This document shows, one piece after another, positions 1,585-23,490 of a stretch of DNA of 28,957 bases. The number at the start of each line of letters is the position of its first letter. The first letter of the stretch is position 1. The DNA lies in the IMG/VR virus record IMGVR_UViG_3300021139_000095, positions 1 through 28,957 of that record, one strand, 5' to 3'. The stretch is from a virus. The notes beneath the pieces are model-generated. The model was not told the DNA's origin. It ran no database searches and saw only the letters and a list, made by a program, of their open reading frames with translations. Position numbers and translations under genes: made by a program.

Positions 1585-1613
1585 CGCTTCATTGATTGAT
1601 ATGGAGAGACGAT

Positions 1614-1934
1614 ATGCAGAAGTTTTATCTACCTATATCCAGTAGTCACTTGCCACCCAAGTCACCACTTGGATTTATCTACGAACATGAAACATACCTT
1701 AGCATTAACAAGGTTGTATCTGATATTTATGACCAGCAGATCGAAAACATTATCCATGTTTATGAAATTGATCCTCAACGTGGGACTGTCCACGATGTGA
1801 TGGTTGACATCTGCGAACTTATACGTCAGAGATACATTATTGATTTGCCATACATCGAAGATGGCAAGTACGAAATTGAAGCATTATTAGATCAACACCA
1901 ACCAACATGGAGATACGATTATGAAAATGTCTGA
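1614..1934 (+). CDS. Hypothetical early protein (106 aa)
   Basis: First gene of the rightward early operon. I start it at ATG 1614 (MQKFYLPISSSHL) because GGAGAG lies about 6 bases upstream. The longer frame from TTG 1596 has no such site. The protein is acidic and rich in Ile and Tyr, with no signal peptide, membrane span or recognisable motif. Its last 14 bases overlap the start of the ERF annealase, and the annealase ribosome binding site (GGAG) lies inside it, so the two are probably coupled. The function is unknown. Being first in line after the promoter suggests very early expression, perhaps in host takeover or regulation, but this is only positional inference. Confidence 0.7.
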   Translation: MQKFYLPISSSHLPPKSPLGFIYEHETYLSINKVVSDIYDQQIENIIHVYEIDPQRGTVHDVMVDICELIRQRYIIDLPYIEDGKYEIEALLDQHQPTWRYDYENV

Positions 1935-2502
1935 AACAATCGCAGAACTTGCCACCGCATTATCTAAGGCACAAGGCCAGATTGAGGCTGCGTCTAAAGG
2001 TTCTGTAAATCCACACTTCAAAAGCAGATACGCTGATCTTAATTCACTGCGTGATGCAATCCGTGAACCATTGGCAGTCAATGACCTTTCAATCATTCAA
2101 CTTCCTCGTGTAGACGGCAATCATGTAGAAGTTGAGACAATGCTTCTTCATAAATCAGGAGAATACATTGCTGAAACATTACGAATGCCATTCGGACAAA
2201 ATAACGCACAGGCTATCGGGTCCGCTCTTACTTACTGCCGCCGTTATAGCTTGGGCAGTTTGCTTAACCTGTCTGCTGATGATGATGATGGTAATGCTGC
2301 CGTTGCGTTATCTGGGAAACAAGATAGCCAAGGAAGTTCTAAAGCTGAACATTCTAATATCAAGGATGAAGCAAAGAAAATAGCACAGGATGGCACAGAA
2401 GCTTTAACTGTGTGGTGGAATAACCTCACCAAAGAAAGCCGCGAATCATTCTCAAAAGATGATCTTGCAGAATTGAAAAAGATAGCTTCAAAGGCAATCT
2501 AA
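1921..2502 (+). CDS. erf: ERF-family single-strand annealing protein
   Basis: This 193-residue protein matches the ERF recombinase family, which coats single-stranded DNA and anneals complementary strands in phage recombination. Family motifs are visible: NPHFKSRYADLNSLRDAI (residues 30-47), the SGEYIAETLRMP strand, and the QAIGSALTYCRRYSL block followed by an acidic DDDDGN stretch. The C-terminal third is a charged, variable tail that probably binds a partner. The ATG at 1921 has GGAG 8 bases upstream. It is followed by a YqaJ-type exonuclease with a TAATG overlap, giving a classic two-gene annealase plus 5'-3' exonuclease pair as in lambda Red. Circularisation or concatemer formation of the phage genome is the likely use. 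Confidence 0.93.
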   Translation: MKMSETIAELATALSKAQGQIEAASKGSVNPHFKSRYADLNSLRDAIREPLAVNDLSIIQLPRVDGNHVEVETMLLHKSGEYIAETLRMPFGQNNAQAIGSALTYCRRYSLGSLLNLSADDDDGNAAVALSGKQDSQGSSKAEHSNIKDEAKKIAQDGTEALTVWWNNLTKESRESFSKDDLAELKKIASKAI

Positions 2503-3131
2503 TGTCTGGATTTAATGATCAGCGCACACCTGAGTGGTTTGCTCAACGATGCGGTAAAGTTACCGCCAGCCGTGTGGCTGACATTTGCGGAAAAACGAAG
2601 AGCGGGTATTCGTCTACTCGCGCTTCGTACATGGCAGAGTTATTGGCGGAGCGTTTGTCTGGTACACCTACGCAGAAGTTTCAATCTCAAGCCATGATGT
2701 GGGGGACAGAGTACGAGGATGAGGCGCGCAGTGAGTATGAAAAACGCACTGGGTGTCTTGTAGAGGGAATCGGCTTTGTCCCCCATCCATCCCTTCAGTG
2801 GGCTGGCGCATCGCCTGATGGATTGGTGGGTAAAAATGGTCTTATCGAAATTAAATGTCCTAATACCAGCACTCACCTTGCAACATTAGAAGATAATGAA
2901 ATACCATCTAAGTATGTGTTCCAGATTTTTTGGCAAATGGAATGTATGGGGGTAGATCGCCAATGGTGCGATTTTATCTCATATGACCCACGCTTGCCTG
3001 AAAACCTGCGTTTGTTTGTTAAGAGAATAGATCGAGACGACAATCGCATTACCGAAATTCGTAACGAAGTCATTCTATTTTTGGATGAGATTGAAGCGAA
3101 GATAACCAAACTAAATGCACTATTTAAATAG
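2502..3131 (+). CDS. YqaJ/lambda-exonuclease-type recombination nuclease
   Basis: This 209-residue protein belongs to the YqaJ family of PD-(D/E)xK alkaline exonucleases, which degrade one strand of duplex DNA 5'-3' to expose single strands for the annealase. Visible motifs in order are QRCGKVTASR (residues 15-24), WGTEYEDEAR with E70, HPSLQWAGASPDGL with catalytic D106, IEIKCP with catalytic E116 and K118, and the helix motif QIFWQMECMG (141-150). Length is typical for the family. The start overlaps the annealase stop as TAATG, so the two are translationally coupled. The next gene, 9 bases on, encodes a small protein with an SSB-like tail. Confidence 0.95.
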   Translation: MSGFNDQRTPEWFAQRCGKVTASRVADICGKTKSGYSSTRASYMAELLAERLSGTPTQKFQSQAMMWGTEYEDEARSEYEKRTGCLVEGIGFVPHPSLQWAGASPDGLVGKNGLIEIKCPNTSTHLATLEDNEIPSKYVFQIFWQMECMGVDRQWCDFISYDPRLPENLRLFVKRIDRDDNRITEIRNEVILFLDEIEAKITKLNALFK

Positions 3132-3140
3132 GAGAAAAGT

Positions 3141-3425
3141 ATGGCGTACGAAAGCAATCTTAACTGGATTAATGTTTTTCGAAATAAGTATAAGTCTGGC
3201 GATAAGCAGCCAGATTTTAAGGAAAACAACAAAAACAATAACCAGATTGAAGTTGAATGCCCGCATTGCAATAAGACATCAATTATGGATGTTGCTGTTG
3301 CTGTATGGGAGAAAACAACCAAGGTTGGAGAAACTTATTTTTCCATTAAGTTTGGCAAAAAATATGTAAAGCCAGACCAATTTCCACAGGAAAACAACGG
3401 CCCTGTCGATAGCATTCCATTCTGA
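3141..3425 (+). CDS. Small protein with SSB-like C-terminal tip, putative ssDNA-binding accessory
   Basis: This 94-residue protein follows the exonuclease and has a clear ribosome binding site (GGAG, 6 bases). The layout FRNKYKSGDKQPDF (residues 13-26) and VWEKTTKVGETYFSIKFGKK (55-74) resembles a small phage protein type often found beside recombination genes, with a beta-strand segment of the W-x-K-x(4)-G-x-x-Y-F-S pattern. A CPHC knuckle (C40, C43) is inserted between these blocks. The last residues, PVDSIPF, resemble the acidic DDIPF tip with which bacterial SSB recruits partner proteins. I infer a role in single-strand DNA handling together with the annealase and exonuclease. Homology to true SSB is not established. 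Confidence 0.6.
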   Translation: MAYESNLNWINVFRNKYKSGDKQPDFKENNKNNNQIEVECPHCNKTSIMDVAVAVWEKTTKVGETYFSIKFGKKYVKPDQFPQENNGPVDSIPF

Positions 3426-3426
3426 T

Positions 3427-3891
3427 ATGACAATACTTGAGACGCCAAAGGAAAAGCCAAAACGTGATCAGTCACGCGCATTTGATTTGTGGTTATCCAA
3501 ATATCCGCAACTTAAGCCAATCCAGACAAGCCAAAACGAATGGCTGTTTGGAGAAATGCGTAAAGACGGAAAAATTGTTAGCGCAATAAACTTTACCATG
3601 ATGCCAGATTTTATCGACCATAGCGGAGATGATAGCTGGGGTGGCATAGAGTGGGTCAGAAACATAGATGTAGAAACTTTTCTTATATCTATCCAGTTTG
3701 GCAGCCAGTACGGCGTTCCTTTGGTGCATCTCTTGTATTTTCCTTTTACTGATACTCTTATGTTTCAAACCATTTGGAAAGATGGCATTAAAACAGAAGT
3801 AAAGTTTGAGGAGAATAATAAGTATAAAAATGGGTTAGCTAAAGTTTACTTTACCTCTCCTAAACTTATTGAGGGGGACAATGAAGGATAG
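3427..3891 (+). CDS. Hypothetical early protein (154 aa)
   Basis: One base separates this ATG from the preceding stop and no good Shine-Dalgarno sequence is seen. Translation therefore probably depends on re-initiation after the upstream gene. The protein begins with a basic, proline-containing segment (MTILETPKEKPKRDQSRAFD) and continues as a mixed alpha/beta sequence with many aromatic residues (WLSKYPQL, DSWGGIEWVRN, LLYFPFTDTLMF). No catalytic motif, signal peptide or membrane segment is evident. The family is not recognised. Its position between recombination genes and an HNH nuclease suggests a DNA-related early function, without direct support. Confidence 0.7.
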   Translation: MTILETPKEKPKRDQSRAFDLWLSKYPQLKPIQTSQNEWLFGEMRKDGKIVSAINFTMMPDFIDHSGDDSWGGIEWVRNIDVETFLISIQFGSQYGVPLVHLLYFPFTDTLMFQTIWKDGIKTEVKFEENNKYKNGLAKVYFTSPKLIEGDNEG

Positions 3892-4201
3892 TAATAAACC
3901 ATTATCTGAGCAATTCAGGTTAATTGCTAAAAAGTGGGTTGATGCGGAAACAGCTGCATCACTTCTTGAGGAAACAAAGTCTGCTGTCCTATCCAAGATG
4001 ATGGCAGATCTTGGTGACATACCAGTCAGCAAGGCAGAAATGAGAATAAAAGCGACACAAGATTGGCGTGATTACATTGAGAAAATGGTTGAGGCTAGAT
4101 CGCAAGCATCTATGCTTAAGGTTCAAATGGAATACATAAGAATGCAATTCTCTGAATGGCAATCACACGAAGCTACAAAAAGAGCAGAAATGAAATTGTA
4201 G
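3881..4201 (+). CDS. Conserved-type helical phage protein (106 aa)
   Basis: The start is ATG 3881 (MKDSNKPLSEQF), with a strong GAGGGGG sequence just upstream. A longer frame from TTG 3869 is not needed. The 3' end of the previous gene overlaps by 11 bases. The protein is almost wholly helical and charged, with a C-terminal block DWRDYIEKMVEARSQ followed by LKVQMEYIRMQFSEWQSHEA. I recognise this pattern as a small protein type common in phage early regions, but its function is not known to me. The helical, charged character suggests a DNA-associated or oligomeric protein. No enzyme motif is visible. Confidence 0.72.
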   Translation: MKDSNKPLSEQFRLIAKKWVDAETAASLLEETKSAVLSKMMADLGDIPVSKAEMRIKATQDWRDYIEKMVEARSQASMLKVQMEYIRMQFSEWQSHEATKRAEMKL

Positions 4202-4210
4202 GAGTTAAAT

Positions 4211-4474
4211 ATGAATGATGCTAACCTATACCAGATAACACCTGATCAAATTGATGAACTTCGTGAAGTTGTTGTTCAAATGTCTGATGTGTTTGAGGGA
4301 CATGAACTTGATGTTGTTATGGTTGCTTTAAACACAATAGTTGTAAGCACTATAATGTCTCATGTGCCAGAAGCTTATCAAAGATATTCAGCGCAAACAT
4401 TTATGAACACATTTATGATTACAATGGCAAATTCAGGAGTTAACTTATATCCCGACAAGGAATATATAAATTGA
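4211..4474 (+). CDS. Hypothetical helical protein (87 aa)
   Basis: The ATG at 4211 follows GGAG with 6-base spacing. The protein has an acidic N-terminal half (ITPDQIDELREVVVQM) and a long, Met- and Thr-rich hydrophobic helical stretch (VVMVALNTIVVSTIMSHVPE). The stretch is not strongly enough apolar to call a membrane span. It overlaps the next gene at TTGA (its own stop is the TGA at 4472-4474). No family is recognised. It lies between two DNA-processing-type genes in a tightly packed operon. Confidence 0.68.
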   Translation: MNDANLYQITPDQIDELREVVVQMSDVFEGHELDVVMVALNTIVVSTIMSHVPEAYQRYSAQTFMNTFMITMANSGVNLYPDKEYIN

Positions 4475-4818
4475 AACGAGTTAAAATAACCACCTCTATG
4501 CGGGTGAAGATATTTGAGAAAGATAACGGCATCTGCCATATGTGTAAACTTAATGTAGATGCTGGTCAGGAATGGGATGTATCACATGAAATTCCTTTGG
4601 AAGCTGGCGGTAAGGACGATATTTCTAATTGGTTTGTGGCACATCGTAAATGTCATAGGCATCATACCGCCACTGTTGACATGCCACTCATAGCTAAAGT
4701 AAAGCGTATAAGGGCAAAGAATATGGGTGCTAAGAAGACAAGATCGCCCATGCCAATGGGTAAAAACTCCAAGTGGAAAAAGAAAATGGATGGAACTGTA
4801 GTTAAGAGAGATAAGTAG
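4471..4818 (+). CDS. HNH endonuclease
   Basis: This 115-residue protein has an HNH nuclease core in residues 22-65. A zinc knuckle is formed by C22 and C25 (ICHMC), with H58 and C61 (HRKC) as the likely second pair. The catalytic strand is WDVSHEIPLEAGG with H39, followed by N53 and H62. The C-terminus is a highly basic tail (residues 75-115) suited to DNA binding. It starts with TTG, whose last bases form the preceding gene's stop, and AAGGA lies 9 bases upstream. In phages such small HNH proteins act as packaging-associated nickases, homing nucleases or host-DNA nucleases. Its place in the early operon, away from terminase, argues against packaging but does not exclude it. Confidence 0.9.
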   Translation: MKRVKITTSMRVKIFEKDNGICHMCKLNVDAGQEWDVSHEIPLEAGGKDDISNWFVAHRKCHRHHTATVDMPLIAKVKRIRAKNMGAKKTRSPMPMGKNSKWKKKMDGTVVKRDK

Positions 4819-4827
4819 GGTGCGTTA

Positions 4828-4872
4828 ATGAAAGATAAAAAATTTGAATTAGTAGGAGAAATAAATGACTAA
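4828..4872 (+). CDS. Possible 14-codon leader peptide
   Basis: A 14-codon frame (MKDKKFELVGEIND) has a good ribosome binding site (AGGG, 7 bases from the ATG). Its stop overlaps the first codons of the next gene, which starts at 4865. The frame contains the AGGAG site used by that gene. This fits a coupling leader, but a frame this short can easily arise by chance. Confidence 0.3.
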   Translation: MKDKKFELVGEIND

Positions 4873-5188
4873 ATTTTTGTTCACCATGAATATGCCATCA
4901 GCAACGGATAATCTTGTTCACCAAATTATTGGCGACGTTGATGGTGCGACTAGCATTGATGATTTGAAATATATGTTGAACCATGCAGATTTTATCAAAA
5001 TCCGCCAATTCTACAGTCATCGCACACCCAACAATGAAAAGAGATTGGAGGATCGCGGCGACATGATCATCAATGTGCAACATATCGGTAAAACACAAGA
5101 GTATTTAGAGGGTAAAATACATGACGCCTACAATGATGCTGGAAGAAGCGGCCCGTATTCTGAAAGAGCGGAGCGAACAATACGGTAG
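4865..5188 (+). CDS. Hypothetical early protein (107 aa)
   Basis: The ATG at 4865 has GGAG 6 bases upstream. The sequence (MTKFLFTMNMPSATDNLVHQ) continues with an acidic segment and an LKYMLNHADFIKIRQFY helix, and ends in a charged, Arg- and Tyr-rich tail. The last 68 bases overlap the start of the next gene in a different frame, so the tail may be constrained by the downstream gene. No domain is recognised. The mixed charge and lack of export signals suggest a soluble cytoplasmic protein. Confidence 0.66.
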   Translation: MTKFLFTMNMPSATDNLVHQIIGDVDGATSIDDLKYMLNHADFIKIRQFYSHRTPNNEKRLEDRGDMIINVQHIGKTQEYLEGKIHDAYNDAGRSGPYSERAERTIR

Positions 5189-5543
5189 CGCAGACGAATG
5201 TTTTGACCGCATCAGTAAGTTAGCGTCAATTATTCTTAACAAAGAGATTACCAAGTACGATGTTGCTATGATCCACGTGGCAACAAAGCTTGGTCGGCTG
5301 CAAGAAACTCGGTGGCTGGACGACAACTATATTGATGGTGTAAACTACTTGGCTTTCGCGGCGCAATTCATAAATGCCCGTGGGAAGAACAGTAAACCTG
5401 ATAACGCAACGGAGGATGACGGCGTTATTGAAATGGCGCGGAAGCTAGCGCCAACACCTAGACGAGAGGAGAAACCTCGTGAGAAAAATAGTACCCCTAG
5501 CACTTTTGCTAGTGACGGCATCTACACAGGTGTCCAAAGCTGA
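5121..5543 (+). CDS. DUF6378-like phage protein
   Basis: This 140-residue protein resembles the DUF6378 type found in many phages, a helical protein with similarity to MazG-like nucleotide pyrophosphatase folds. The characteristic parts are AARILKERSEQYGSADECFD (residues 10-29), the ITKYDVAMIHVATKLGRLQE helix and the following WLDDNYIDGVNYLAFAAQF segment, which carries the acidic residues expected for a metal site. The C-terminal 40 residues are polar and probably disordered. GAGGG lies 8 bases before the ATG. Both ends overlap neighbours in other frames (68 and 65 bases). A role in nucleotide-pool control is plausible, but the domain's activity is not established. Confidence 0.75.
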   Translation: MTPTMMLEEAARILKERSEQYGSADECFDRISKLASIILNKEITKYDVAMIHVATKLGRLQETRWLDDNYIDGVNYLAFAAQFINARGKNSKPDNATEDDGVIEMARKLAPTPRREEKPREKNSTPSTFASDGIYTGVQS

Positions 5544-6075
5544 TGAAAGTGCGGCAGAATTCTTCGTCAAAGACAAAACCTATTGGTCGAAGGGTCTGAA
5601 AGCGCCAGATAAGCTTGAGTATAATGGATCTAATGTTGTGGCTGATGTTATAAAAGCTGGCGATTACCAAAAGCAAAAAGTCGTTCAGATGGTCACTGAG
5701 AAAGTACGCGCTGCGCTTGGATCGGAATGGGTCCCAACTGCATTACGTATTGCCAAGGTAGAATCTGGATTTAACTGTAACGCCGTGGGGCCACGTACAC
5801 GGGTAGGCAGAGGTAGAGGGGTATATCAACTCATGCCAGGATCTAGCGCCGCTCTAGGGTATTCCTATGGCCGTTTAAATGAGTGTTCCTATGGTATTGA
5901 TGCGGGCGTTGCCCATATGCAGAAGTGCCTAGAGTCAGCTGGGGGGCATATGAATCCAAACCAGATGGCAGCGTGTCACGTTAGCGGCTGGGGTGGCTGG
6001 AACCGCAAACTGAAGCGCCGTGATGAAAAATACCGCAAAAAATATATTCACATGGCCAGTCGCGCTAGAATATAA
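5479..6075 (+). CDS. Secreted lytic transglycosylase (SLT fold)
   Basis: This 198-residue protein has a Sec signal peptide: KR-type charge, a hydrophobic core LALLLVTAS, and a probable cleavage after SKA near residue 21. The mature part carries a GH23-like SLT domain: catalytic E95 in IAKVESGFNC, the GVYQLMPGSSAALGY motif (residues 114-128) and a C-terminal HVSGWGGWN segment. Four cysteines (C100, C136, C150, C166) fit two disulfides in the periplasm. Such enzymes cleave peptidoglycan with formation of 1,6-anhydro ends. The start is GTG with GAGGAG 7 bases upstream. It lies in the early operon, not in the lysis cassette, so its role may be cell-wall remodelling, exclusion of other phages or virion assembly rather than final lysis. 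Confidence 0.87.
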   Translation: MRKIVPLALLLVTASTQVSKADESAAEFFVKDKTYWSKGLKAPDKLEYNGSNVVADVIKAGDYQKQKVVQMVTEKVRAALGSEWVPTALRIAKVESGFNCNAVGPRTRVGRGRGVYQLMPGSSAALGYSYGRLNECSYGIDAGVAHMQKCLESAGGHMNPNQMAACHVSGWGGWNRKLKRRDEKYRKKYIHMASRARI

Positions 6076-6150
6076 GAGGGAACGGGTGGTTGCGTAATAG
6101 ACTCGCGTGGGTCCATGGTTAGCCCACACCTTAACAATATGGAGATTGAT

Positions 6151-6717
6151 ATGACTAAACCAATGAGTGTTCAAGAATTAAATGTCGTAGATAAAAGAAT
6201 GATCGAATTGTGGAACAGCGGTTTCACAGGTCAGATGCTTGCCGAGTATTTTGGTAAAACACGCAATGCAATTTTAGGTCGTTTATCAAGGTTAAGAGAT
6301 GCTGGTCACAACGTATCTGTAAAAGGCCAGTTAAACCCGAACAAAAATAAGCAAGAAAAACCAAAGCTTTATAATACAAGCGAAGAAAGAGCGATGACAA
6401 GGCGGGTCAAAGATGCGATCAAGAAGCTTGACAGTAGGAAGAAAAAAGACCTTACGCATGAAGATGATTTGATTCGAGTTGATAATTTTGACAGGTGCAA
6501 AGATACCCGTGTGCGTATTTATGACTTAAAAAGCCATCACTGCCGATATATAGTAGACAATAGAAACCCAGATAAGTCTTGGTATTGCGGTCATCCCAAG
6601 GAAGTTAATAGCTATTGCGGGTATCATGCCAAACTTTGCTACTTACCGCCAGACCGACAGCGATCAAAACAATCAGCAAGAAAATCCTCATTTGCCTATG
6701 GAAGAACGTCACGATGA
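6151..6717 (+). CDS. gcrA: GcrA-family transcriptional regulator
   Basis: This 188-residue protein matches GcrA, an alphaproteobacterial cell-cycle regulator that binds sigma-70 RNA polymerase and GANTC-methylated promoters. The N-terminal helix-turn-helix is at residues 11-50 (KRMIELWNSGFTGQMLAEYF, then GKTRNAILGRLSRL). A long charged linker follows. The C-terminal sigma-interacting domain shows the typical Cys/His pattern: C131, C146, C156, H159 in HHCRYIV, WYCGHP and SYCGYHA. I start it at ATG 6151 (GGAG, 6 bases) rather than 6115. A phage copy could redirect host polymerase to phage or cell-cycle promoters. No CcrM methyltransferase is visible here, so methylation would depend on the host or on genes outside the window. 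Confidence 0.88.
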   Translation: MTKPMSVQELNVVDKRMIELWNSGFTGQMLAEYFGKTRNAILGRLSRLRDAGHNVSVKGQLNPNKNKQEKPKLYNTSEERAMTRRVKDAIKKLDSRKKKDLTHEDDLIRVDNFDRCKDTRVRIYDLKSHHCRYIVDNRNPDKSWYCGHPKEVNSYCGYHAKLCYLPPDRQRSKQSARKSSFAYGRTSR

Positions 6718-6947
6718 TGCTGCAACTAGATCCTCCCATTCCAGTAGAAACGCCCCAAGGAAAGGCGATGGCTGTTGGTTGGTTGGATTATGGTGCGGAA
6801 CATCATCTGCTTTGGATTTGTTTTATTGACAAAACAGGCGAATGTTGGTCTTATCCTAATCCAGAGATTCGTGCGCAGAGCAATCCAAGCATGGGCAGAG
6901 TATACAACGAGACATTCCTAGGAGAACCTTGGAAAATCAAATCATAA
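6714..6947 (+). CDS. Hypothetical small phage protein (77 aa)
   Basis: The ATG at 6714 overlaps the GcrA-like stop as ATGA. A longer frame starting at 6615 would overlap the GcrA gene heavily and is unlikely. The protein begins MMLQLDPPIPVETPQGKAMA and continues with a hydrophobic, Trp-rich strand region (VGWLDYGAEHHLLWICFID) and a CWSYPNPEIRAQSN segment. I recognise the pattern as a recurrent small protein of phages, but its function is unknown to me. It is the last gene of the rightward operon, followed by the terminator at 7017. Confidence 0.72.
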   Translation: MMLQLDPPIPVETPQGKAMAVGWLDYGAEHHLLWICFIDKTGECWSYPNPEIRAQSNPSMGRVYNETFLGEPWKIKS

Positions 6948-7016
6948 GCATGAAGTAGTGGCGTAAACCATTGTTCATATAAGGGGCTAGTGGAACGAAA
7001 ACGTGCTTTGATAAAA

Positions 7017-7047
7017 GGGGAGTCTTTATTACGCCTAAAGATTCCCC
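7017..7047. terminator. Bidirectional rho-independent terminator between convergent operons
   Basis: GGGGAGTCTTTA (7017-7028) and TAAAGATTCCCC (7036-7047) form a 12-bp stem with one G-U pair around a 7-base loop. TTTT follows on the plus strand (7050-7053), and the minus-strand product ends in TTTTAT, so the hairpin can stop transcription from both sides. It sits in the 104-base gap between the rightward early operon and the leftward late operon. Both arms contain a GANTC sequence, a consequence of the pairing. Confidence 0.85.
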
Positions 7048-7051
7048 AATT

Positions 7052-8518
7052 TTATGAAAACTCCGCCCATTGTACAGCGTTTACGTTAGTGCCACCAATT
7101 GAATAAGTTGCACCAGCTGGAACTGGGAATGAAAGAGTTTCACCATATTTATAGCTTAAGTTACCACCACCTTGCGCAATAGCAGTCCCATTAACATAAA
7201 CAGCAAATCCGCCGTTATAACCAGTATAAACAAGTGAGGCAAATACAGTAATCGTATATGCCTTAGAATTTGTGTAAGTGTTGTTAATGGAGTTACTGGT
7301 GTTAGTCCACGAACTAGCTTGAGGTGTCGAGGTTGCAGCCGTTGTTTGGACTGTATTATCGGGGAATTTAAAACCACCAAAAGTGCTTTGAATAAGACTG
7401 TTTGATGTTATTGAACCATTTACACTAACCCGTCCAGCAACAGTTTGAGAGCCTGTTGTGGTATTAGCAAATGATACACTCCCTGCTGAGGATGCTGTAA
7501 CAGTGTAAATTCCGTTATAACCAGTTGGTGTCACACCAGTAACAACAACACTTTCTCCAACAGGAAAAACATAATTTCCAGCAAATGTTATGGTTGCTGT
7601 TGTTCCATTACCCGTGGCAGCCGTTGTAGACCCAATAATTACTCCAGTTGATATTCCACCTGAAAAATTAGCTAATTGATCAGTGTCACAATATAGTGTG
7701 AAATTACCAGTATTTGCTGAATTATAAAAAACTAAATCGCCACCATCCCTTAGTGCAAGTGCGGTGAATGGCGTACCTGTAAGTATAAGGGTGCCATTAC
7801 TTGCAATAACACCCGCAACAGTTTGTGAACCTGTTGTGGTATTGGCAAATGATACACTACCTGCCGAGGATGCTGTAACTGTGTAAGTGCCATTGTACCT
7901 AGTTGGAGTAACTCCATAAATTGTTATTTGAGAGCCAACAGGATAAACAAAAGTTCCAGAAAATGTTACGGTCGCCGTTGTTCCATTTCCAGATGTTCCA
8001 GTAGTATTAAATAAAGTAGCATTTACAGTTAATTTAGAAGTATCATAAGTTAAATTTGAACTTGCTGCAAAAAGACCACCATTATTATATTGTAATTGAT
8101 TAGTACTTCCAGCCGCATAAGTTGATACGTTTTTGATGTTTGTACCATCTGATACAATTTGCGTAATCACACCTTGGCTTACAACAACAGATGTTCCACC
8201 GCCTAATGAAGCAATAGTAACCGTATAAGAGCCAGATGCACCATTGGCTACAATCCATTGTCCACCAACACCAGATGGAATGGTAAACGTAACATTAGCT
8301 GTTAACGTACCTGAAATTGATAAGATAAGAGGACGATATTGAGTTGCTGTTAAATTAACTGGTGTTGAAGATTGGCCAGTGACGTTTAATGATGTCTGAC
8401 CACCAAAAGCTTGATCTATGTAATCCCAGTCATTATTAACTGGGGTACTCCATGTATTTACATAATCGCCATTTGCTGGTTTTTCGATGGACTTGTTTGT
8501 TGTAAATGTACTTGCCAT
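7052..8518 (-). CDS. Tail fibre / tail appendage protein with duplicated beta module
   Basis: This 488-residue protein is the last gene of the late operon. The N-terminus (MASTFTTNKSIEKPANGDYV, then NTWSTPVNNDWDYIDQAFGG) resembles a common phage fibre attachment leader. The rest is Thr-, Ser-, Gly- and Asn-rich beta sequence, typical of fibres. Two 62-residue modules at about residues 177-238 and 303-364 are near-identical in their second halves. The C-terminal 100 residues (TVQTT.., AYTITVFASL.., GETLSFPVPAGATYSIGG) look like a compact beta domain that could be the receptor-contacting tip. RBS GGGG lies 6 bases before ATG 8518. Its separation from the main fibre cluster suggests a distinct appendage or a virion decoration. 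Confidence 0.8.
   Translation of the reverse strand: MASTFTTNKSIEKPANGDYVNTWSTPVNNDWDYIDQAFGGQTSLNVTGQSSTPVNLTATQYRPLILSISGTLTANVTFTIPSGVGGQWIVANGASGSYTVTIASLGGGTSVVVSQGVITQIVSDGTNIKNVSTYAAGSTNQLQYNNGGLFAASSNLTYDTSKLTVNATLFNTTGTSGNGTTATVTFSGTFVYPVGSQITIYGVTPTRYNGTYTVTASSAGSVSFANTTTGSQTVAGVIASNGTLILTGTPFTALALRDGGDLVFYNSANTGNFTLYCDTDQLANFSGGISTGVIIGSTTAATGNGTTATITFAGNYVFPVGESVVVTGVTPTGYNGIYTVTASSAGSVSFANTTTGSQTVAGRVSVNGSITSNSLIQSTFGGFKFPDNTVQTTAATSTPQASSWTNTSNSINNTYTNSKAYTITVFASLVYTGYNGGFAVYVNGTAIAQGGGNLSYKYGETLSFPVPAGATYSIGGTNVNAVQWAEFS
7427..7612 (-). repeat. Fibre module repeat, copy 2
   Basis: Residues 303-364 of the fibre gene. The repeat reads GNGTTATITFAGNYVFPVGE, then VTGVTPTGYNGIYTVTASSA and a segment identical to copy 1 (GSVSFANTTTGSQTVAG). 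DNA identity to copy 1 is also clearly high. It resembles the FCCH-like beta module found in phage structural proteins. Confidence 0.8.
7805..7990 (-). repeat. Fibre module repeat, copy 1
   Basis: Residues 177-238 of the fibre gene. It is homologous to the copy at 7427-7612, with the strongest match in the last 24 residues and in the DNA near 7806-7880. Copy 1 differs in the first half (FVYPVGSQITIYGVTPTRYN), so the halves have drifted at different rates. Confidence 0.8.
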
Positions 8519-8527
8519 TGGTTACCC

Positions 8528-10882
8528 CTAAATCTTCTCGTTGGCGATGGCCAATGCTTTTGTGATTGCTTCGTCTGGAACGGTTAATAGTGGTTCCGTT
8601 CCTTTATTGATGCGATTCTTAGCACGTTCTGCGTCCCGAACCAAGGTTTGCGCATCCATTACTTTGCCACCCATGGCGCGGCCCACACGTCCGCCTGAAG
8701 CATGAGATGTAGCCGTTCCAGCCGTAGCCGCGACAGCAGCAGTCATGCCAGTTTTAAGCTTTTGCATAATCTCTCTTGATTGCGCATCGCTTTGCAGCAT
8801 TCTTTGCAACAATTGAAAGTCTTCTGGTTTTTGTGATGTTGCTAGACGAACAATCGCATTTGCCTTACGTGCCGCAACAGCCTCAACACCCTTTTTAGCA
8901 CCATATCCCAAACCAGCGACAGCAAGCGCTTTAGGGTTGGTTAAGAGGGCTGGGTTTTCAATTAAAGCTAAACCCATTGCCCCTAAGCCAACTTGATTAA
9001 TAGTGTTTGATGGAAGCTTGGGCGTAATAGTATTTGCAACAGCAGCAAGATGCGCCGTATCGGTGGCGTTCTTTACCGAATCAAATGTGCCAGGTCCAAT
9101 ACCAGTATCTAAAACAGTTTTGTAGCGACCAAGCGTTGTGTTATCCGCTGCGTTAAATACGCGAATAGCTTGTTGAGGATTCTCTTTAATAAACGACAAC
9201 AACCCATTAGCCATGCTTTGTTTTTCTGCGGGCGTGTACTCCGTAGAAAACGCATTCATCATCTGGTCTGGCAACTCTGGTGTTGATGTTTTTGATGCAA
9301 TATTGCCAACATCAAAGAATTTCTGACCAGCTTCATAAGCGTTATCATTTTGAAAATAACGGCGAGCAGTATCAACGGCATTACCATAAAGCGGAACACC
9401 ATTTTCATCTTTTACAGTATCACTCAAATAATCTCTTAATGAAGACGCATCATCGCTTATTCTATTGCCAAGGTTTTTTTCACCATTTTTATAAGCAGCA
9501 GCTGCTTGATCATTTAAACCCTGTTTGAATTTATCCCAATATTCTAATGGCAACGGCGCATTTTTAACAAAATCACCTTCATCATCTTTCATAAAGGGTA
9601 CATTTTTATTAACTTGGAAACTAGGGCCATATTTAGTGCGCATTTCCATATTTGCGAACTTCATCGCAGATTGGCCATGCGGTGTATTGATAAGAAAATC
9701 AATATTATCTGGTGTTATGTTTTGCGCCGATGGATGATTATAAGCAGCTTGGTATAAAGGGTCTAATGCTTCATTTTTAGCTTTATCAGCTAATTGTTGT
9801 TGCGCGGCTGAATTTATTGGCTTTCCAGCTGCCTGATCTATAGCTGATTGGAACACGCCAGTGCTGTCGGAATAACGGTTGTTTAAATCCGACACAAGAT
9901 TATCGACGGCGGTTGTGTCGCTTGCCTTACCAGCAGCCTTTTCAACAATACCCTTTGCACCAGATATATCTATGGGCATAGCGCTTTGGTCTTCAGCTAA
10001 ACCTTTTTGAATTATAGAAGGTGCAGCCTCCCCAGCGGCGGTAGGTGATTGCCCAGATAAAAGTGAACGAGCAGCGGCAGATTGGGTATCAAATAAATTT
10101 TCAAATGTATTACGCGCAGCCCCAGCCAAAGAGCCAGCACCACGAGCAACTAAATTACCCGCTGGGCCAGCTATAGTACCCATTTCAGCGCCTGTTAAAG
10201 CGTTTTTACCAATATCTGACCAAGTAGATCCTGGAGCGGATGAAGCGGCACTTGATGCGGCACCTGTTAAAGCACCCAGTCCAGCTGCGCCAGCTAATGT
10301 AGCACCAGCTTCAGGTGCAAGAACTGCGGCAGGTATAGCAGATGCTATGTTTGTGGCTACGTGACCAGCGCCATAGGCCCAAGGATGCTGTTGCCAACGA
10401 GCATTATTATAAGCTTCTTGCTCTGCTAAAATGTTTTTATAACGCTCGTCTTCGGTATCACCATAGCTTGCGTAATCATCAGATTTAGCTTTTGATGCAG
10501 CAATTGTTTTTGCGACCAATGGGCCGACTATAGGAACACTTGATTCTGTTGGCGTAGTAAATGCTTTCATTGCTCCTTCTTTAGCAACGGCGGCATCTGC
10601 TATTGGTTGGTATCTTGCTACTCTTGCTTGATGCTCTTCTTCAGCTGATTGTGGCCCAGCCTGTTGTTGCTGACCGCCAGATGCAATTTTCATTAGATCT
10701 TGATCGGACATTTGTGCATATGGATTGTCTTTTGGTGCAGAACCAACAATCGACATCAATTTGTCATTTGACATATCTTGGAATGAAGGCGTTTGTTGTT
10801 GATCCTGTGATTGCTGGCCACCAGATACAATTGATTGTAAATCAGCATCAGACATTTGGGAAAAATCAGGAGTATCAGCCAT
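8528..10882 (-). CDS. Large internal virion / DNA-ejection-type protein (784 aa)
   Basis: This 784-residue protein has three tandem N-terminal motifs, FSQMSDADLQSIVS (7-20), FQDMSNDKLMSIVG (34-47) and YAQMSDQDLMKIAS (55-68), separated by Gln-rich linkers. An Ala- and Gly-rich stretch (170-258) and another apolar stretch near 640-680 could interact with membranes. The C-terminus carries ASGGRVGRAMGGKVMD and an amphipathic helix ending ALAIANEKI. It overlaps the previous large gene as TAATG. The size, low complexity and location resemble ejection (pilot) proteins of podoviruses, which leave the virion and form a conduit across the cell envelope. I see no enzyme motif. The assignment rests on composition and context. 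Confidence 0.7.
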   Translation of the reverse strand: MADTPDFSQMSDADLQSIVSGGQQSQDQQQTPSFQDMSNDKLMSIVGSAPKDNPYAQMSDQDLMKIASGGQQQQAGPQSAEEEHQARVARYQPIADAAVAKEGAMKAFTTPTESSVPIVGPLVAKTIAASKAKSDDYASYGDTEDERYKNILAEQEAYNNARWQQHPWAYGAGHVATNIASAIPAAVLAPEAGATLAGAAGLGALTGAASSAASSAPGSTWSDIGKNALTGAEMGTIAGPAGNLVARGAGSLAGAARNTFENLFDTQSAAARSLLSGQSPTAAGEAAPSIIQKGLAEDQSAMPIDISGAKGIVEKAAGKASDTTAVDNLVSDLNNRYSDSTGVFQSAIDQAAGKPINSAAQQQLADKAKNEALDPLYQAAYNHPSAQNITPDNIDFLINTPHGQSAMKFANMEMRTKYGPSFQVNKNVPFMKDDEGDFVKNAPLPLEYWDKFKQGLNDQAAAAYKNGEKNLGNRISDDASSLRDYLSDTVKDENGVPLYGNAVDTARRYFQNDNAYEAGQKFFDVGNIASKTSTPELPDQMMNAFSTEYTPAEKQSMANGLLSFIKENPQQAIRVFNAADNTTLGRYKTVLDTGIGPGTFDSVKNATDTAHLAAVANTITPKLPSNTINQVGLGAMGLALIENPALLTNPKALAVAGLGYGAKKGVEAVAARKANAIVRLATSQKPEDFQLLQRMLQSDAQSREIMQKLKTGMTAAVAATAGTATSHASGGRVGRAMGGKVMDAQTLVRDAERAKNRINKGTEPLLTVPDEAITKALAIANEKI

Positions 10883-16599: not shown

Positions 16600-18716
16600 T
16601 AGTACCGTCCATCTGGTTGGAAGCGATACCTAATACCGCCAAGCCGCCACCACGAACCAACGTCATTGCTGTTTATTTGTATAGAAACCAAACGGCCACG
16701 GAACCGAGGACTTATAAATTCTGTCCCTTGAGTTAACGTGTAAGGTCCGTAAGAACGAGGCGTATCGCCTGGATAATCCGTAACATAGAATGTTAATTGG
16801 ACTGTGGCAGTCGGGTTTTGGTACACCGCGCCGCCATTAACATTCCCGTTGTAATAACCCCATTTCATATCAGGCCATACCTGATCTATGAAGTTTTTCA
16901 CATTAGCTTCTGATAGGGCGAAATAACCTGTTTGGAAGCTTGATTGCATTGGTTGGTTATTAACGCCATTATAAGCTGCGTCTGGAGATGTTTCGTGCTG
17001 GTAAATATATTGATCAGAAGATGCGCCAATGGGTGGTCCAAGCACACTTTGATTGATCCAAGCGGTGCGAGATAACGTACCAAAATCCCATTGTTGCATA
17101 TATACGTTGTATTTAACGTAAGCGTTCACCTCACCGCCATCAGAAATGTTGGGATAAAACCAAGAAATTTCGCCAAAGTTTGAGTTGACCGCAACTCTTA
17201 TTTTACTAAGGTTTGTCTCATCCAAATCTTGGAATATCACGTCCCAAATTGGGCATGGCAGTGGGACAACACCCGCTGATGAATAAGTCCAGAACTGACT
17301 TTGCCCCATCCAGTAGACGACATTATTTAGCGATGCAGCAGCTTTTCTAGAAATTAACCCGCAGCCAGTGCCTAATTCGTTAAATGAATAAATATATGGC
17401 TGATTAATATATTGCATCGACCAAAGGCCGATGTCGGTCCAAATTAAACCTTGTTGTTGGGCCTGAATTGCGCCAACAATCTTAGAGCCTTTCGGAATGC
17501 GATAAGAACCAGCCTGATTCGTAGTCAACGCAATCCAGCTTGTTGTGCTGGTGAAGTCATTAATATCACACCAACGTACAAGCAGTGGGTCTTGTATTCC
17601 ATTTAATGTGCTGCCCCACGCTACAATTTGGCGCTGAGGCATTGCCACAAAAATACCGTCATTAACAACAGGACCAGCATTATCAACTGTCGCAACTGGA
17701 TTGCCCGATGTTGAGTCCCAATAATAAATAGCGCCACTAACTGGGCAAGCTATAAGGATTTGGCCCCAGTTGTCCATCGTCCAATCTGTTGGTTGGATTG
17801 GATTACCTGTGGTAGGAGTAATAGCTGTACCAGTCCCATACCCACCAGAACCATAACCACCGATGCCATAACCCGTACCAGCAGGAACTGGACCAATTCC
17901 AATATAATAATCATATTGTGCTTGATTGCCGTTTAAATATCCGTTTGTTGTTGACGATGCTGTTGTCGATCCAGTAATAACAAAATTATTAGCGTCTGTT
18001 ATGCTCTGGACGATATAGTTACCAAAGAATGTAATGCCGCCAACAGTTGTTGAAACAAGTACGGGAAATGTATTTCCAGCTACATAACCATGATTATTTA
18101 GAGTTACGGTGACTGATGCACTTCCGCTCGTCACTGAAAACTGAGGTACAGAACCGCCATTTGTGACTGTGCTTGTGGCATATGCGGGGCCACCAAGGGC
18201 ATTTGTCGCTAGAATATCAAATGTACCCGTTCCAACGGTAATAGCTGGATAAAATCCATAAAGTATTAATCCGCCGACAGATATTTGTGTTTTAATAAAT
18301 ACAGAATCGTAACTGGTAATTGTTGAACCAGAGTCATTAATCGTAACAACATTGCTGCCAGATGTCGTTGAGACGGAGACTGGCATCACATTATCTTCTA
18401 TTGTTCTGGGCGTTATATTTATTCTAGTTCCGTTATTAATAACGCTTAATGTATTTGTATTTCCTGCGCCATACTCCGCGCCAACGGCAAGCCAAGCTTT
18501 TGAATTTGTATCTTCCCACGCCCATAAAGCGCGAACAATTGAACCTATTTTATTGGGAAAATAAGTCAGCCAACCGCCAAGCTTTTGAACCAAACCAAAG
18601 CCATTTCGATCTGGAACAAAACGCACAAGGTTAGTAAATGAAAGGCCCGCTTGATTTAATGCAGGGGTTTCATTTTGATCGACACCAGGAGTAATTTTTA
18701 CCTGTGCGTGGGGCAT
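16599..18716 (-). CDS. P22 gp10-like / nozzle-type tail protein (705 aa)
   Basis: This 705-residue protein begins MPHAQVKITPGVDQNETPAL and then NLVRFVPDRNGFGLVQKLGGW, a start typical of phage packaged-DNA stabilisation (P22 gp10-like) or nozzle proteins. Short WLAVGAEYG-type strands, WGQILIACPVSGAIYYWDS and later QIVAWGS, LLVRWCDINDF, YSFNELGTGCGLIS and FWTYSSAGVVP indicate a repeated beta-propeller. Residues about 110-260 are inserted Thr/Ser-rich beta modules of the Ig-like or FCCH-like kind. The C-terminus (RGRLVSIQINSNDVGSWWRL, then GGIRYRFQPDGRY) is typical of the family. It probably closes the tail channel. A weakness is that only pattern similarity is used. Confidence 0.78.
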   Translation of the reverse strand: MPHAQVKITPGVDQNETPALNQAGLSFTNLVRFVPDRNGFGLVQKLGGWLTYFPNKIGSIVRALWAWEDTNSKAWLAVGAEYGAGNTNTLSVINNGTRINITPRTIEDNVMPVSVSTTSGSNVVTINDSGSTITSYDSVFIKTQISVGGLILYGFYPAITVGTGTFDILATNALGGPAYATSTVTNGGSVPQFSVTSGSASVTVTLNNHGYVAGNTFPVLVSTTVGGITFFGNYIVQSITDANNFVITGSTTASSTTNGYLNGNQAQYDYYIGIGPVPAGTGYGIGGYGSGGYGTGTAITPTTGNPIQPTDWTMDNWGQILIACPVSGAIYYWDSTSGNPVATVDNAGPVVNDGIFVAMPQRQIVAWGSTLNGIQDPLLVRWCDINDFTSTTSWIALTTNQAGSYRIPKGSKIVGAIQAQQQGLIWTDIGLWSMQYINQPYIYSFNELGTGCGLISRKAAASLNNVVYWMGQSQFWTYSSAGVVPLPCPIWDVIFQDLDETNLSKIRVAVNSNFGEISWFYPNISDGGEVNAYVKYNVYMQQWDFGTLSRTAWINQSVLGPPIGASSDQYIYQHETSPDAAYNGVNNQPMQSSFQTGYFALSEANVKNFIDQVWPDMKWGYYNGNVNGGAVYQNPTATVQLTFYVTDYPGDTPRSYGPYTLTQGTEFISPRFRGRLVSIQINSNDVGSWWRLGGIRYRFQPDGRY

Positions 18717-21619: not shown

Positions 21620-21648
21620 ATAGCAGTTATTAGCTGCTATATTTTTTT
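21620..21648. promoter_or_regulatory. Hairpin in the intergenic gap between fibre and lysis genes
   Basis: ATAGCAG (21620-21626) and CTGCTAT (21634-21640) pair as a 7-bp stem around a 7-base loop. On the plus strand a run of seven T follows (21642-21648), making a weak terminator shape. On the minus strand, where the genes lie, no T run follows, but AT-rich -10-like sequences lie nearby. The gap at 21601-21675 is the largest noncoding gap inside the late operon. Confidence 0.4.
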
Positions 21649-21675
21649 ACACTAAAATTCGACCAAATCCAAGAC

Positions 21676-21996
21676 CTATGCAGACCAAGGTAATGGCAAT
21701 GATGTATTTTGAGGAGAAATTTTAGCTGCTATTTCCGCATCTAACTGTGCCTCAAGAGCCGAAACTTGAGTGGCCCCTAATGCAGCCTGCACCCATCCAA
21801 TGACTTCAGCCTGAGTAAGTTGATTATAGGCCGTAAAGGGTGAGCCAGCTGTGTATGTTACATCAGTTTCGCCGTTGGTTGCAATTGCAACTGCGTTTGT
21901 TGTCGGAAGATAAATTCCGTTGGTAGGGGCAGAGGAACCTGATGGAACAAGTGTTGCCGCCGTTACGCCGTTTGTACCATCAATAATTGCCGACAT
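21676..21996 (-). CDS. Short tail-fibre leader fused to a small tail-associated domain (106 aa)
   Basis: This 106-residue protein has two parts. The N-terminus MSAIIDGTNGVTAATLVPSG, continuing to VAIATNG, resembles the leaders of the neighbouring fibre genes. From about residue 58 a small helical domain follows (LTQAEVIGWVQAALGATQVS, ALEAQLDAEIAAKISPQNTS), ending LPLPWSA. That C-terminal domain is a type often seen as a small protein near phage tail-fibre genes. AAGGA lies about 8 bases before ATG 21996. A fibre assembly or connector role is likely but not proven. Confidence 0.72.
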   Translation of the reverse strand: MSAIIDGTNGVTAATLVPSGSSAPTNGIYLPTTNAVAIATNGETDVTYTAGSPFTAYNQLTQAEVIGWVQAALGATQVSALEAQLDAEIAAKISPQNTSLPLPWSA

Positions 21997-22007
21997 AGTT
22001 CAGTTCC

Positions 22008-22187
22008 TTAGCTTGCAGGAGCAATAGTTAATTGCCCTTCTTGCACTAATTTCATAATGTTGATGTAGTCTGTGTTGGAAGGATCAAGAGGAACACATGA
22101 TTCAAAACCATTTATTTCTACTTTAATTCCACAATTTATAGTTGTGTTTGGTATGTAATAATATTGAGCGTTTGTGTAAACTTTCAT
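22008..22187 (-). CDS. Small tail-associated protein (59 aa)
   Basis: Fifty-nine residues (MKVYTNAQYYYIPNTTINCG to EGQLTIAPAS) with GGAG 7 bases before ATG 22187. The start follows the preceding fibre gene's stop by a single base. The pattern PLDPSNTDYINIMKLVQEGQ matches a recurrent motif (xPxDPxNxDYxxxxxxxxEG) in phage tail-fibre assembly-type and other small tail proteins. Two cysteines are present (NCG, SCV). I infer a fibre chaperone or tip-associated role. Confidence 0.72.
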   Translation of the reverse strand: MKVYTNAQYYYIPNTTINCGIKVEINGFESCVPLDPSNTDYINIMKLVQEGQLTIAPAS

Positions 22188-22188
22188 T

Positions 22189-23316
22189 TTACAACTCCGC
22201 AGAGAAGTCTAAATAGACAAGCGTTGATACGTTGGCAGCAGCAAGCGCAAATGCCCCGCCATTTGTAAATGATCCAGTCGCCCCAATTGATATGTTATTA
22301 TTGGAGTTTGATCCATTAGAGGGATAACCGCTAATGTTCAACGCACTCACAGAATAATCAAAATTTCCAGAAACTGGAGTTGTATAGCCAAAAGTAGGCT
22401 GCGTTCTCATTGGTACAGGAAAATAAAGATTGGCCGATCCGCCCGTGGTTGAATAACACCTGCCAATAGCAAATTGAACGTAAGGAAGGCTGTTATTTGT
22501 GTATTTAACATAATACCTTTGACACTGCGATAATTGATCGCTGTAGGTATTAAATTGATATGGTGTTGCTACAGAGCCAACTTCTAATTGTACGCCTGTT
22601 ATGTAGAAAGTAGCGCCATTTGTTGAAACAATGTTTTGTGCGCCTGATGTTGAATAATAATTTGATGAAGTCCAAGATCCTGCCGTGGTTTGATAATTTG
22701 AACCGCAACCCAAATTAAAACATAAAGCTAATCCCTGACCATTTGTCGTATTATAAGAAAAAGTTGTTGTGTCACCTGGTATTGTAACAGTTATGTATGT
22801 CCATGTATTTGCAGAAGCGATGCTAAATGTAAAAACATAAGATCTAAATGTTGATCCATTTGTTCCAATAACAGAACCAGCAAATGTTCCAGTTAATGAA
22901 CTATACGCCCAAAACGAAAGAGTTATAGTTTTAGCGTTTGCCGTACCAAAATTAAGGTCAGCCACATTATAGCCTTCAATCCCCTGCAAAGTAGTAATAA
23001 GATCAGTTGAGGTTACAGTATATGAAGAGCTAGAAGTAAATCCCAAATATTTATTAAATCCAGAAGGAGGTGTTACTGAACCTGCATTTTGCTGAATAGT
23101 AAATTTTGATGCTTGAGTTGTATAATATGACCAACGATCAATTGTATAAGTTGTTGCACCAGTTGTTGAGGCTGTAACACTTCCGCCGTTATTTCTTTGG
23201 TCAACTGCCATATTACCATTGATAATACGATTGCGTGGCCCAAGGCTCGCAGCAGTACCCATATTGGTATTGTCGTTGAAGGTAATGCCTGTGGTTCCGT
23301 TAACTGCGAATGACAT
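22189..23316 (-). CDS. Tail spike/fibre protein with jelly-roll carbohydrate-binding-like domain (375 aa)
   Basis: This 375-residue protein starts MSFAVNGTTGITFNDNTNMG, a short fibre leader, then NRIINGNMAVDQRNNGGSVT. A large beta domain with TIDRWSYYTTQASKFTIQQN, NKYLGFTSSSSYTVTSTDLI and LQGIEGYNVADLNFGTANAK follows, with the YITGVQLEVGSVATPYQFNT closing strands. This layout matches a common phage appendage domain related to carbohydrate-binding, galactose-binding-like jelly rolls. It would bind sugar receptors. The last 120 residues (SQCQRYYVKY.., RTQPTFGYTT.., YLDFSAEL) are a separate beta tip. TAATG-coupled to the preceding stop. Confidence 0.82.
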   Translation of the reverse strand: MSFAVNGTTGITFNDNTNMGTAASLGPRNRIINGNMAVDQRNNGGSVTASTTGATTYTIDRWSYYTTQASKFTIQQNAGSVTPPSGFNKYLGFTSSSSYTVTSTDLITTLQGIEGYNVADLNFGTANAKTITLSFWAYSSLTGTFAGSVIGTNGSTFRSYVFTFSIASANTWTYITVTIPGDTTTFSYNTTNGQGLALCFNLGCGSNYQTTAGSWTSSNYYSTSGAQNIVSTNGATFYITGVQLEVGSVATPYQFNTYSDQLSQCQRYYVKYTNNSLPYVQFAIGRCYSTTGGSANLYFPVPMRTQPTFGYTTPVSGNFDYSVSALNISGYPSNGSNSNNNISIGATGSFTNGGAFALAAANVSTLVYLDFSAEL

Positions 23317-23489
23317 TATTGCACCGCCGCAAGTTGTTGTGCTGTAGGTTCAGCAAGTGTGGGATGATTCCAAGATTTTATGTAATCACCATCTCCATCA
23401 TTCTGTAAAACAATGGTTCCCGTTCCAAGAGCAAAATCTGCCGTTGTTAATGTTGAATATATTTTAATTATCTTTTCATAAAGAGACAT
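23316..23489 (-). CDS. Small tail-associated protein (57 aa)
   Basis: Fifty-seven residues from ATG 23489 (MSLYEKIIKIYSTLTTADFA), with GAGAGG 8 bases upstream. A GTG at 23498 gives three more residues. The pattern TGTIVLQNDGDGDYIKSWNH followed by PTLAEPTAQQL resembles the small XkdW/YorD-like proteins found near fibre genes of tailed phages. It starts one base after the preceding gene's stop. The function is unknown, and a fibre assembly role is only inferred. Confidence 0.75.
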   Translation of the reverse strand: MSLYEKIIKIYSTLTTADFALGTGTIVLQNDGDGDYIKSWNHPTLAEPTAQQLAAVQ

Positions 23490-23490
23490 A

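Follow-up and report, generated by a model that had tools for sequence, protein, structure and literature searches.

Gene Organization around gcrA

The window, i.e., the whole stretch of 28,957 nucleotides of the virus record IMGVR_UViG_3300021139_000095 that was analyzed, carries on its forward strand an uninterrupted open reading frame at positions 6151–6717, which codes for a GcrA-family protein of 188 amino acids (P0001 in what follows). A GGAG sequence at 6141–6144 is found six bases 5' of its ATG. According to the gene list and Pfam matches, the gene belongs to a set of rightward early genes (1596–6947, forward strand) that includes those for an ERF protein (1921–2502), a YqaJ protein (2502–3131), an HNH protein (4471–4818), a DUF6378 protein (5121–5543) and an SLT transglycosylase (5479–6075), all of them on the forward strand, and whose last members are gcrA and a small frame that we call orfX (6714–6947, forward strand, 77 amino acids). 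The start codon of orfX overlaps the stop codon of gcrA. Upstream of the rightward early genes, a motif scan gave a promoter-like site at 1556–1584 on the same strand (TTGACA and CATAGT separated by 17 bases, 10 of 12 positions), although sites of this kind are not above chance in the window as a whole (17 found versus 23.0 in shuffles).

The hairpin search located a terminator-like hairpin of 12 pairs at 7017–7047, where the early and late operons converge, with GANTC at 7020 and 7040 in its stem. Hence, gcrA closes the early genes and stands tail-to-tail with the end, not the promoter, of the leftward late operon. The earlier note on this DNA had placed the gene late in the early operon and just before the late one; its terminal position among the early genes holds, but it is the end of the late operon that adjoins it, so that no hint of a late switch can be drawn from the arrangement. 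Scanning the window for Rfam families and tRNAs gave no hits. Hairpin-like inverted repeats, perhaps terminators or leader structures, can be recognized by eye in the stretch that separates gcrA from the gene before it, both in the window (6100–6130) and in six relatives (L177, L181, L185, L195, L201 and L202).

The same phage, about 96–98% identical in early-region pieces, was recovered in contigs of 41.8, 33.5, 8.4 and 6.4 kb. All four give GcrA matches, two of which are partial and below the cut-off. The stretches 7013–8376, 9391–9776 and 21621–27056 of the window had no blastn match (E 1e-10) in the compared pieces of close contigs, and tail-fibre-like and neighboring late genes seem to have been replaced between close relatives.

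Family Assignment and Domain Architecture

P0001 scored 59.2 bits against the Pfam GcrA family (PF07750; cut-off 26.9, E 8e-16), and a phmmer search of the PDB returned Caulobacter GcrA (7ye1) at E 1.3e-6, together with weak matches to the single-domain entries 5yix (E 0.0055) and 5yiu (E 0.15). The membership of the GcrA family proposed in the earlier note is therefore borne out by a profile search far above its cut-off. Two PHROG profiles of unknown function, phrog_16311 and phrog_12262, match members of the phage lineage described below as well as cellular GcrA, so GcrA-like phage families are present in that library. Among the control genomes, PF07750 was also above its cut-off in Sulfolobus acidocaldarius, which lies outside the Alphaproteobacteria.

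An AlphaFold2 model of P0001 was built from 11 aligned phage sequences. The N-terminal helix-turn-helix (HTH) DNA-binding domain (residues 12–50; positions 6184–6300, forward strand) is confidently modeled, with helices at residues 12–22, 27–34 and 38–50, the C-terminal domain (residues 121–166; positions 6511–6648, forward strand) is modeled with fair confidence, and the middle of the protein with low confidence. Foldseek ranked 7ye1, 7ye2 and 5yix at the top with no E-value under 0.08; the sigma-interacting domain 5yix_B was superposed with a probability of 1.00, a target TM of 0.76 and an rmsd of 1.8 over 43 columns (E 0.18). The C-terminal domain is thus predicted by the model to have the fold of the GcrA sigma-interacting type. 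A VIA-align search with the same model gave 50 rows, nearly all of them HTH proteins and none of them GcrA.

The conservation of alignment columns agrees with this two-domain plan. Across 28 proteins of the phage lineage and 30 cellular GcrAs, G43, R47, C131, C146, C156 and H159 do not vary in either group, and the recognition-helix residues T37, R38, N39, G43 and R47 (motif TRNAxxGxxxR) are retained in most or all rows. The preserved HTH and the Cys/His pattern of C131, C146, C156 and H159 that had been read from this sequence alone both stood up to the comparison. Taken together, the profile and column comparisons confirm that positions 6151–6717 encode a GcrA-type protein of a phage lineage with both domains retained.

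The linker from R47 to C131 (positions 6292–6540, forward strand) had been regarded as a sign of rewiring for being charged and roughly 80 residues long. Its length of 83 residues is ordinary, since the same interval measures 52–119 residues in cellular proteins (median 67) and 50–91 in the lineage (median 67.5), and linker length as a sign of rewiring was discarded. Only its composition is unusual: 43% of its residues are charged, which is the top of the lineage range (0.25–0.43; 17–38% in cellular proteins), and 2% are proline, compared with a median of 12% in the lineage and in the cellular group. In Caulobacter GcrA an unstructured linker is described at residues 46–107 (PMC7403470).

A Phage Lineage with Its Own Signature

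The virion structural protein encoded at 16602–18716 has at least 597 relatives in viral contigs and the ERF protein has 129. Fifty records were chosen by hand, mostly by length, for a GcrA search: 11 seeded by the structural gene, 38 seeded by ERF and one GenBank phage, the seeds being drawn from 80 loci per search, some of which share a record. A GcrA match was obtained in 36 of the 50 (6/11 structural-seeded, 30/38 ERF-seeded and 0/1 GenBank phage), a count in which the ERF-seeded share favors gcrA because ERF lies near it; three of these matches contain stops and one is a short fragment. The 14 records that gave no GcrA match include long ones (G009, 52 kb; G012, 60 kb; W01, 61 kb) and the ERF-seeded G049 and G050. 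Therefore, the gene is not indispensable.

For the tree and column comparison, one of the 30 phage loci (L174–L203) was left out (L203), as were four near-copies from the tree (L183, L187, L189 and L193) and two of the 35 bacterial-genome loci (L238 and L290). Two loci on contigs of a Beijerinckiaceae metagenome-assembled genome (MAG), L241 and L243, were assigned to the phage lineage ahead of tree building, the contig of L241 being probably one that carries the structural gene, and L237 was treated as other phage. The cellular set favors canonical sequences, as 29 of its 30 members (L235 included) come from the 30 top-scoring matches of a search that gave a match in 86 of 142 genomes, and one (L236) comes from another search. 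The lineage forms one side of a branch against the 30 cellular GcrAs with support of 87/98, which rises to 100/100 upon removal of three long outgroup branches, in a tree whose bootstrap had not fully settled. P0001 is placed inside the 28-row lineage and not with chromosomal GcrA. Match scores of the lineage are 31–86 bits, versus 134–187 for the best 30 cellular loci, weaker cellular matches also existing, some of them split at the linker.

The C-terminal domain bears the signature of the lineage, which is to be read as a contrast with canonical GcrA, the cellular rows being the best-scoring ones. Position 163 is Cys in 28/28 lineage rows and Ala in 30/30 cellular rows; position 133 is Tyr or Phe in 28/28 versus Trp in 30/30; position 134 is Val or Ile in 27/28 versus Pro in 30/30. 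G136 and P138, invariant in the 30 cellular rows, are not retained as a motif in the lineage, and neither is W9. P0001 itself has none of the cellular residues W133, P134, G136, P138 and A163, presenting Y133, I134 and C163 instead, and it also lacks W9. Thus, P0001 shares with cellular GcrA (PF07750; Caulobacter crescentus; 7ye1, 5yix and 5yiu) the two-domain plan, the HTH motif, the Cys/His pattern and an ordinary linker length, but differs from it in this set of residues and in belonging to a separate clade.

Substitutions in gcrA show it to be under purifying selection. Compared with a 98% identical copy (L001), there are 14 synonymous and 3 non-synonymous changes (dN/dS 0.05); nine pairs were tried, three of which had synonymous saturation and six of which gave a dN/dS value, five of them at 0.05–0.22 and one close pair at 0.66 on ten changes.

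Phage-encoded GcrA has been in print since 2012, when it was reported for phiCbK-like phages (PMC3556154), and later sources mention it in Agrobacterium phage Atu_ph08, as a probably host-derived gene (PMC6630229), in a coral-associated phage (PMC11309003), in a table row on phiLM21-like prophages (PMC12429752) and in brucellaphage Y17 (PMC11836647). The gp222 protein of phiCbK and its relatives in Caulobacter phages are proposed to alter the state of the host (PMC3556154). Unlike the lineage, the phiCbK protein keeps the cellular CRWPYGDP motif and Ala in place of C163; it groups with cellular GcrAs in trees, although the AU test does not reject a tree in which it joins the lineage (p-AU 0.24). 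The GcrA-like proteins gp5 of Atu_ph08 (PMC6630229) and gp103 of Agrobacterium phage 7-7-1 show 18% and 26% identity, respectively, in the alignment, and fall outside the lineage on long branches. In tblastn searches of 50,697 phage records, two lineage members had no match at E 1e-3, a cellular GcrA matched 35 records, of which 26 are Caulobacter phages, and P0001 at E 0.01 matched only phage 7-7-1 (two records, E 8e-4). Two Synechococcus phage records (PP438432.1 and OM868079.1) contain a GcrA of the cellular type with 46.6% identity to the cellular query, which is odd for phages whose listed host is a cyanobacterium. Among the papers listed, none describes a phage-specific GcrA subfamily in its title or the beginning of its abstract, most subscription journals lying outside the coverage. 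As far as these searches show, a phage-specific GcrA branch with its own signature, common in uncultured relatives and often beside orfX, looks new.

The Neighboring Gene orfX

Relatives of orfX were searched for in the same 50 records, using as the query a 70-residue relative of the downstream frame. They appear in 27 records: 26 of the 36 with GcrA and only one, a weak match, of the 14 lacking it (Fisher p 5.5e-5, uncorrected for relatedness). Among records of at least 25 kb the figures are 17/21 versus 0/8 (p 1.2e-4, also uncorrected for relatedness). In 22 of the 26, i.e., in 22 of the 36 GcrA-bearing records, orfX lies within about 520 bases downstream of gcrA on the same strand, and in several relatives its start overlaps the gcrA stop as it does in the window.

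The product of orfX would be a small beta protein according to its AlphaFold2 model, which has four strands and a mean pLDDT of 76.5. Its weak structural matches are small beta barrels such as Cren7 and, lower down, CarD (all with E > 0.4), while uncharacterized phage proteins give a best E of 1.2e-6. The orfX protein of the window and two relatives had no match in Pfam and one weak match in PHROGs. An obligate partnership with GcrA was ruled out, as orfX is also present in the sewage phage MW091528, whose inspected annotated stretch names no GcrA.

GANTC Sites, Methyltransferase and Host

The earlier note remarked that no CcrM partner is visible, and this proved correct for the records available: a methyltransferase of the PF01555 (N6_N4) family is found in 0/4 same-phage records, which are fragments or of unknown completeness. 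In the 50 relatives there are two such enzymes, one in a record with GcrA (G044) and the other in one that lacks it (G050), and one of the two also has a ParB domain. CcrM bears a RAMA domain; neither of these two enzymes has a Pfam match to it. Regarding the host, the structural gene occurs in 11 genome contigs, labeled as beta proteobacterium, Beijerinckiaceae, Gammaproteobacteria, Paceibacterota, Acidithiobacillales, Chloroflexi, Alphaproteobacteria, Opitutae (two), Sphingomonadaceae and Methylococcales. The binning looks unreliable, and we claim no host from MAG contigs.

GANTC is depleted in the window (44 sites versus 69.3 expected). Coding sites number 41 versus 61.3 in synonymous shuffles that keep protein and codons (z −4.0), whereas intergenic ones are not raised (3 versus 5.1 expected); in the 41.8 kb relative the values are 55 versus 85.1 and 6 versus 13.2, respectively. 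CTNAG is depleted to the same degree in the window, so GANTC depletion alone is not specific. With such counts, GANTC promoters in general are not supported for this phage, and its site pattern gives no clear sign that N6-methylated GANTC would still be needed. It should be considered that the window and the 41.8 kb relative may not include the late promoter.

The intergenic GANTC sites of this phage give a single weak lead. Two of the three intergenic sites are those in the terminator stem, while the third, a GACTC found by motif scan at 6100–6104 (forward strand), precedes the gcrA start by 51 bases and might serve autoregulation. Of 29 extracted relatives, 7 have a GANTC in the 150 bases that precede gcrA (at distances of 24, 24, 49, 51, 52, 139 and 147). 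In a set of 26 rows, which includes the window and omits four near-copies, 4 of 8 sites lie at 49–52 bases upstream, and 15 of 5000 random placements scored as high, in a test made after the clustering had been noticed. The sites at 49–52 bases in L175, L179 and L199 lie inside upstream reading frames, so they are not evidently the same site as the GACTC of the window, and the assigned gcrA start of L199 looks too early. Autoregulation through this GACTC is kept as a lead and is not counted as support.

In 12 pooled GcrA-bearing records intergenic GANTC is at expectation (137 versus 137.2) and coding GANTC at 0.51 of it. Under an improved null model, in which the 20 bases preceding each start are excluded, intergenic sites are raised in G042 (z +5.7), G030 (+3.3), G044 (+2.6) and G039 (+1.8). 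The remaining nine GcrA-bearing records, two of them from the present phage, show no such rise. G042 and G039 are closely related, and two control motifs are raised as well in G030. Many intergenic GAGTC in these four records are GGAGTC ribosome-binding sites near starts, where the methylation motif overlaps translation signals. No shared −10 or promoter position appeared around 100 intergenic site-gene pairs. GANTC as a promoter mark across the lineage was not retained, part of the sites being GGAGTC and no common promoter position having emerged; a GANTC regulon may exist, above all in some relatives. In the whole of phage record MW202675.1 (L014, L015), which has no GcrA or PF01555 match, GANTC is nearly absent, with 2 coding sites versus 100.4 expected from synonymous shuffles and 0 intergenic versus 20.6, an extreme avoidance.

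Proposed Function

We think that the best explanation for this protein is that of a sigma-70 cofactor that steers the host polymerase to phage promoters, a reading that we hold to be somewhat better than an even bet. The C-terminal domain would probably dock on domain 2 of the main sigma factor of the host within the RNA polymerase holoenzyme, the HTH would touch promoter DNA, and the opening of DNA by the polymerase would thereby be eased at a selected set of promoters. Since the gene is widespread in the lineage, forms its own clade and is often beside orfX, these promoters would most likely be middle or late ones of the phage itself. Sigma binding, activation, DNA preference and the targeting of phage promoters are inferred by analogy with the family. 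The Pfam and PDB matches, the retained recognition helix, the mostly low dN/dS and the fold match of the predicted model to the GcrA sigma-interacting domain, which was solved with sigma-70 domain 2, argue for the cofactor; the 14 of 50 records that give no match, the absence of a shared promoter position and the single dN/dS of 0.66 count against it. Also counted against it is a scan of phage genomes for predicted GcrA sites, which found no positional asymmetry (PMC9437464). The loss of W133, P134, G136 and P138 means that sigma binding may have changed.

The main rival is that the protein mimics the host cell-cycle regulator, as was suggested for phiCbK, switching on host S-phase promoters methylated at GANTC by means of host CcrM marks and so raising replication capacity. 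We consider it rather unlikely. It draws on cellular GcrA orthologues, which act at methylated GANTC, as stated in PMC3667746, where binding to sequences that have no methylation sites is also described, and on the role proposed in the phiCbK paper (PMC3556154). Moreover, the recognition helix is largely conserved, and the phage records show no methyltransferase of the CcrM class, so the marks would be those of the host. However, the match scores set the protein of the lineage well apart from canonical GcrA (31–86 bits as compared with the best 30 cellular loci) and it forms its own clade, while a host mimic might be expected to stay closer.

A competitor that occupies sigma-70 domain 2 or host GcrA sites, thereby shutting GcrA-dependent host genes and freeing polymerase, would fit with the retained sigma-interacting-type fold of a domain that is altered in places, but the recognition helix is conserved, not decayed, and a pure sigma competitor would not need it; we see it as quite improbable. 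Least probable of all is a DNA-binding protein with no remaining role through sigma-70 that acts, e.g., in phage replication or packaging, as the place of gcrA at the close of a gene set with recombination genes and the loss of W133, P134, G136 and P138 might suggest, since the protein keeps both the predicted domain fold and all four of its Cys/His positions.

Returning to the sigma-70 cofactor, a bolder form of it, which we regard as speculative and doubtful, is that the lineage has made GcrA its own promoter selector, with a sigma domain reshaped by an extra Cys and the lost Trp/Pro motif, independent of GANTC methylation and perhaps acting with the co-translated orfX product. If this were true, it would be a phage sigma appropriator on domain 2 instead of domain 4. 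T4 AsiA and P23-45 gp39 are likewise small phage proteins, with an expected action on host sigma or polymerase, but they target sigma domain 4, whereas GcrA targets domain 2 and binds DNA (PMC7403470).

The gcrA of this lineage looks like a long-standing and common phage gene with its own signature and a frequent neighbor. It makes testable both a possible phage hijack of sigma-70 domain 2 and a possible capture or loss by viruses of epigenetic promoter reading through GANTC.
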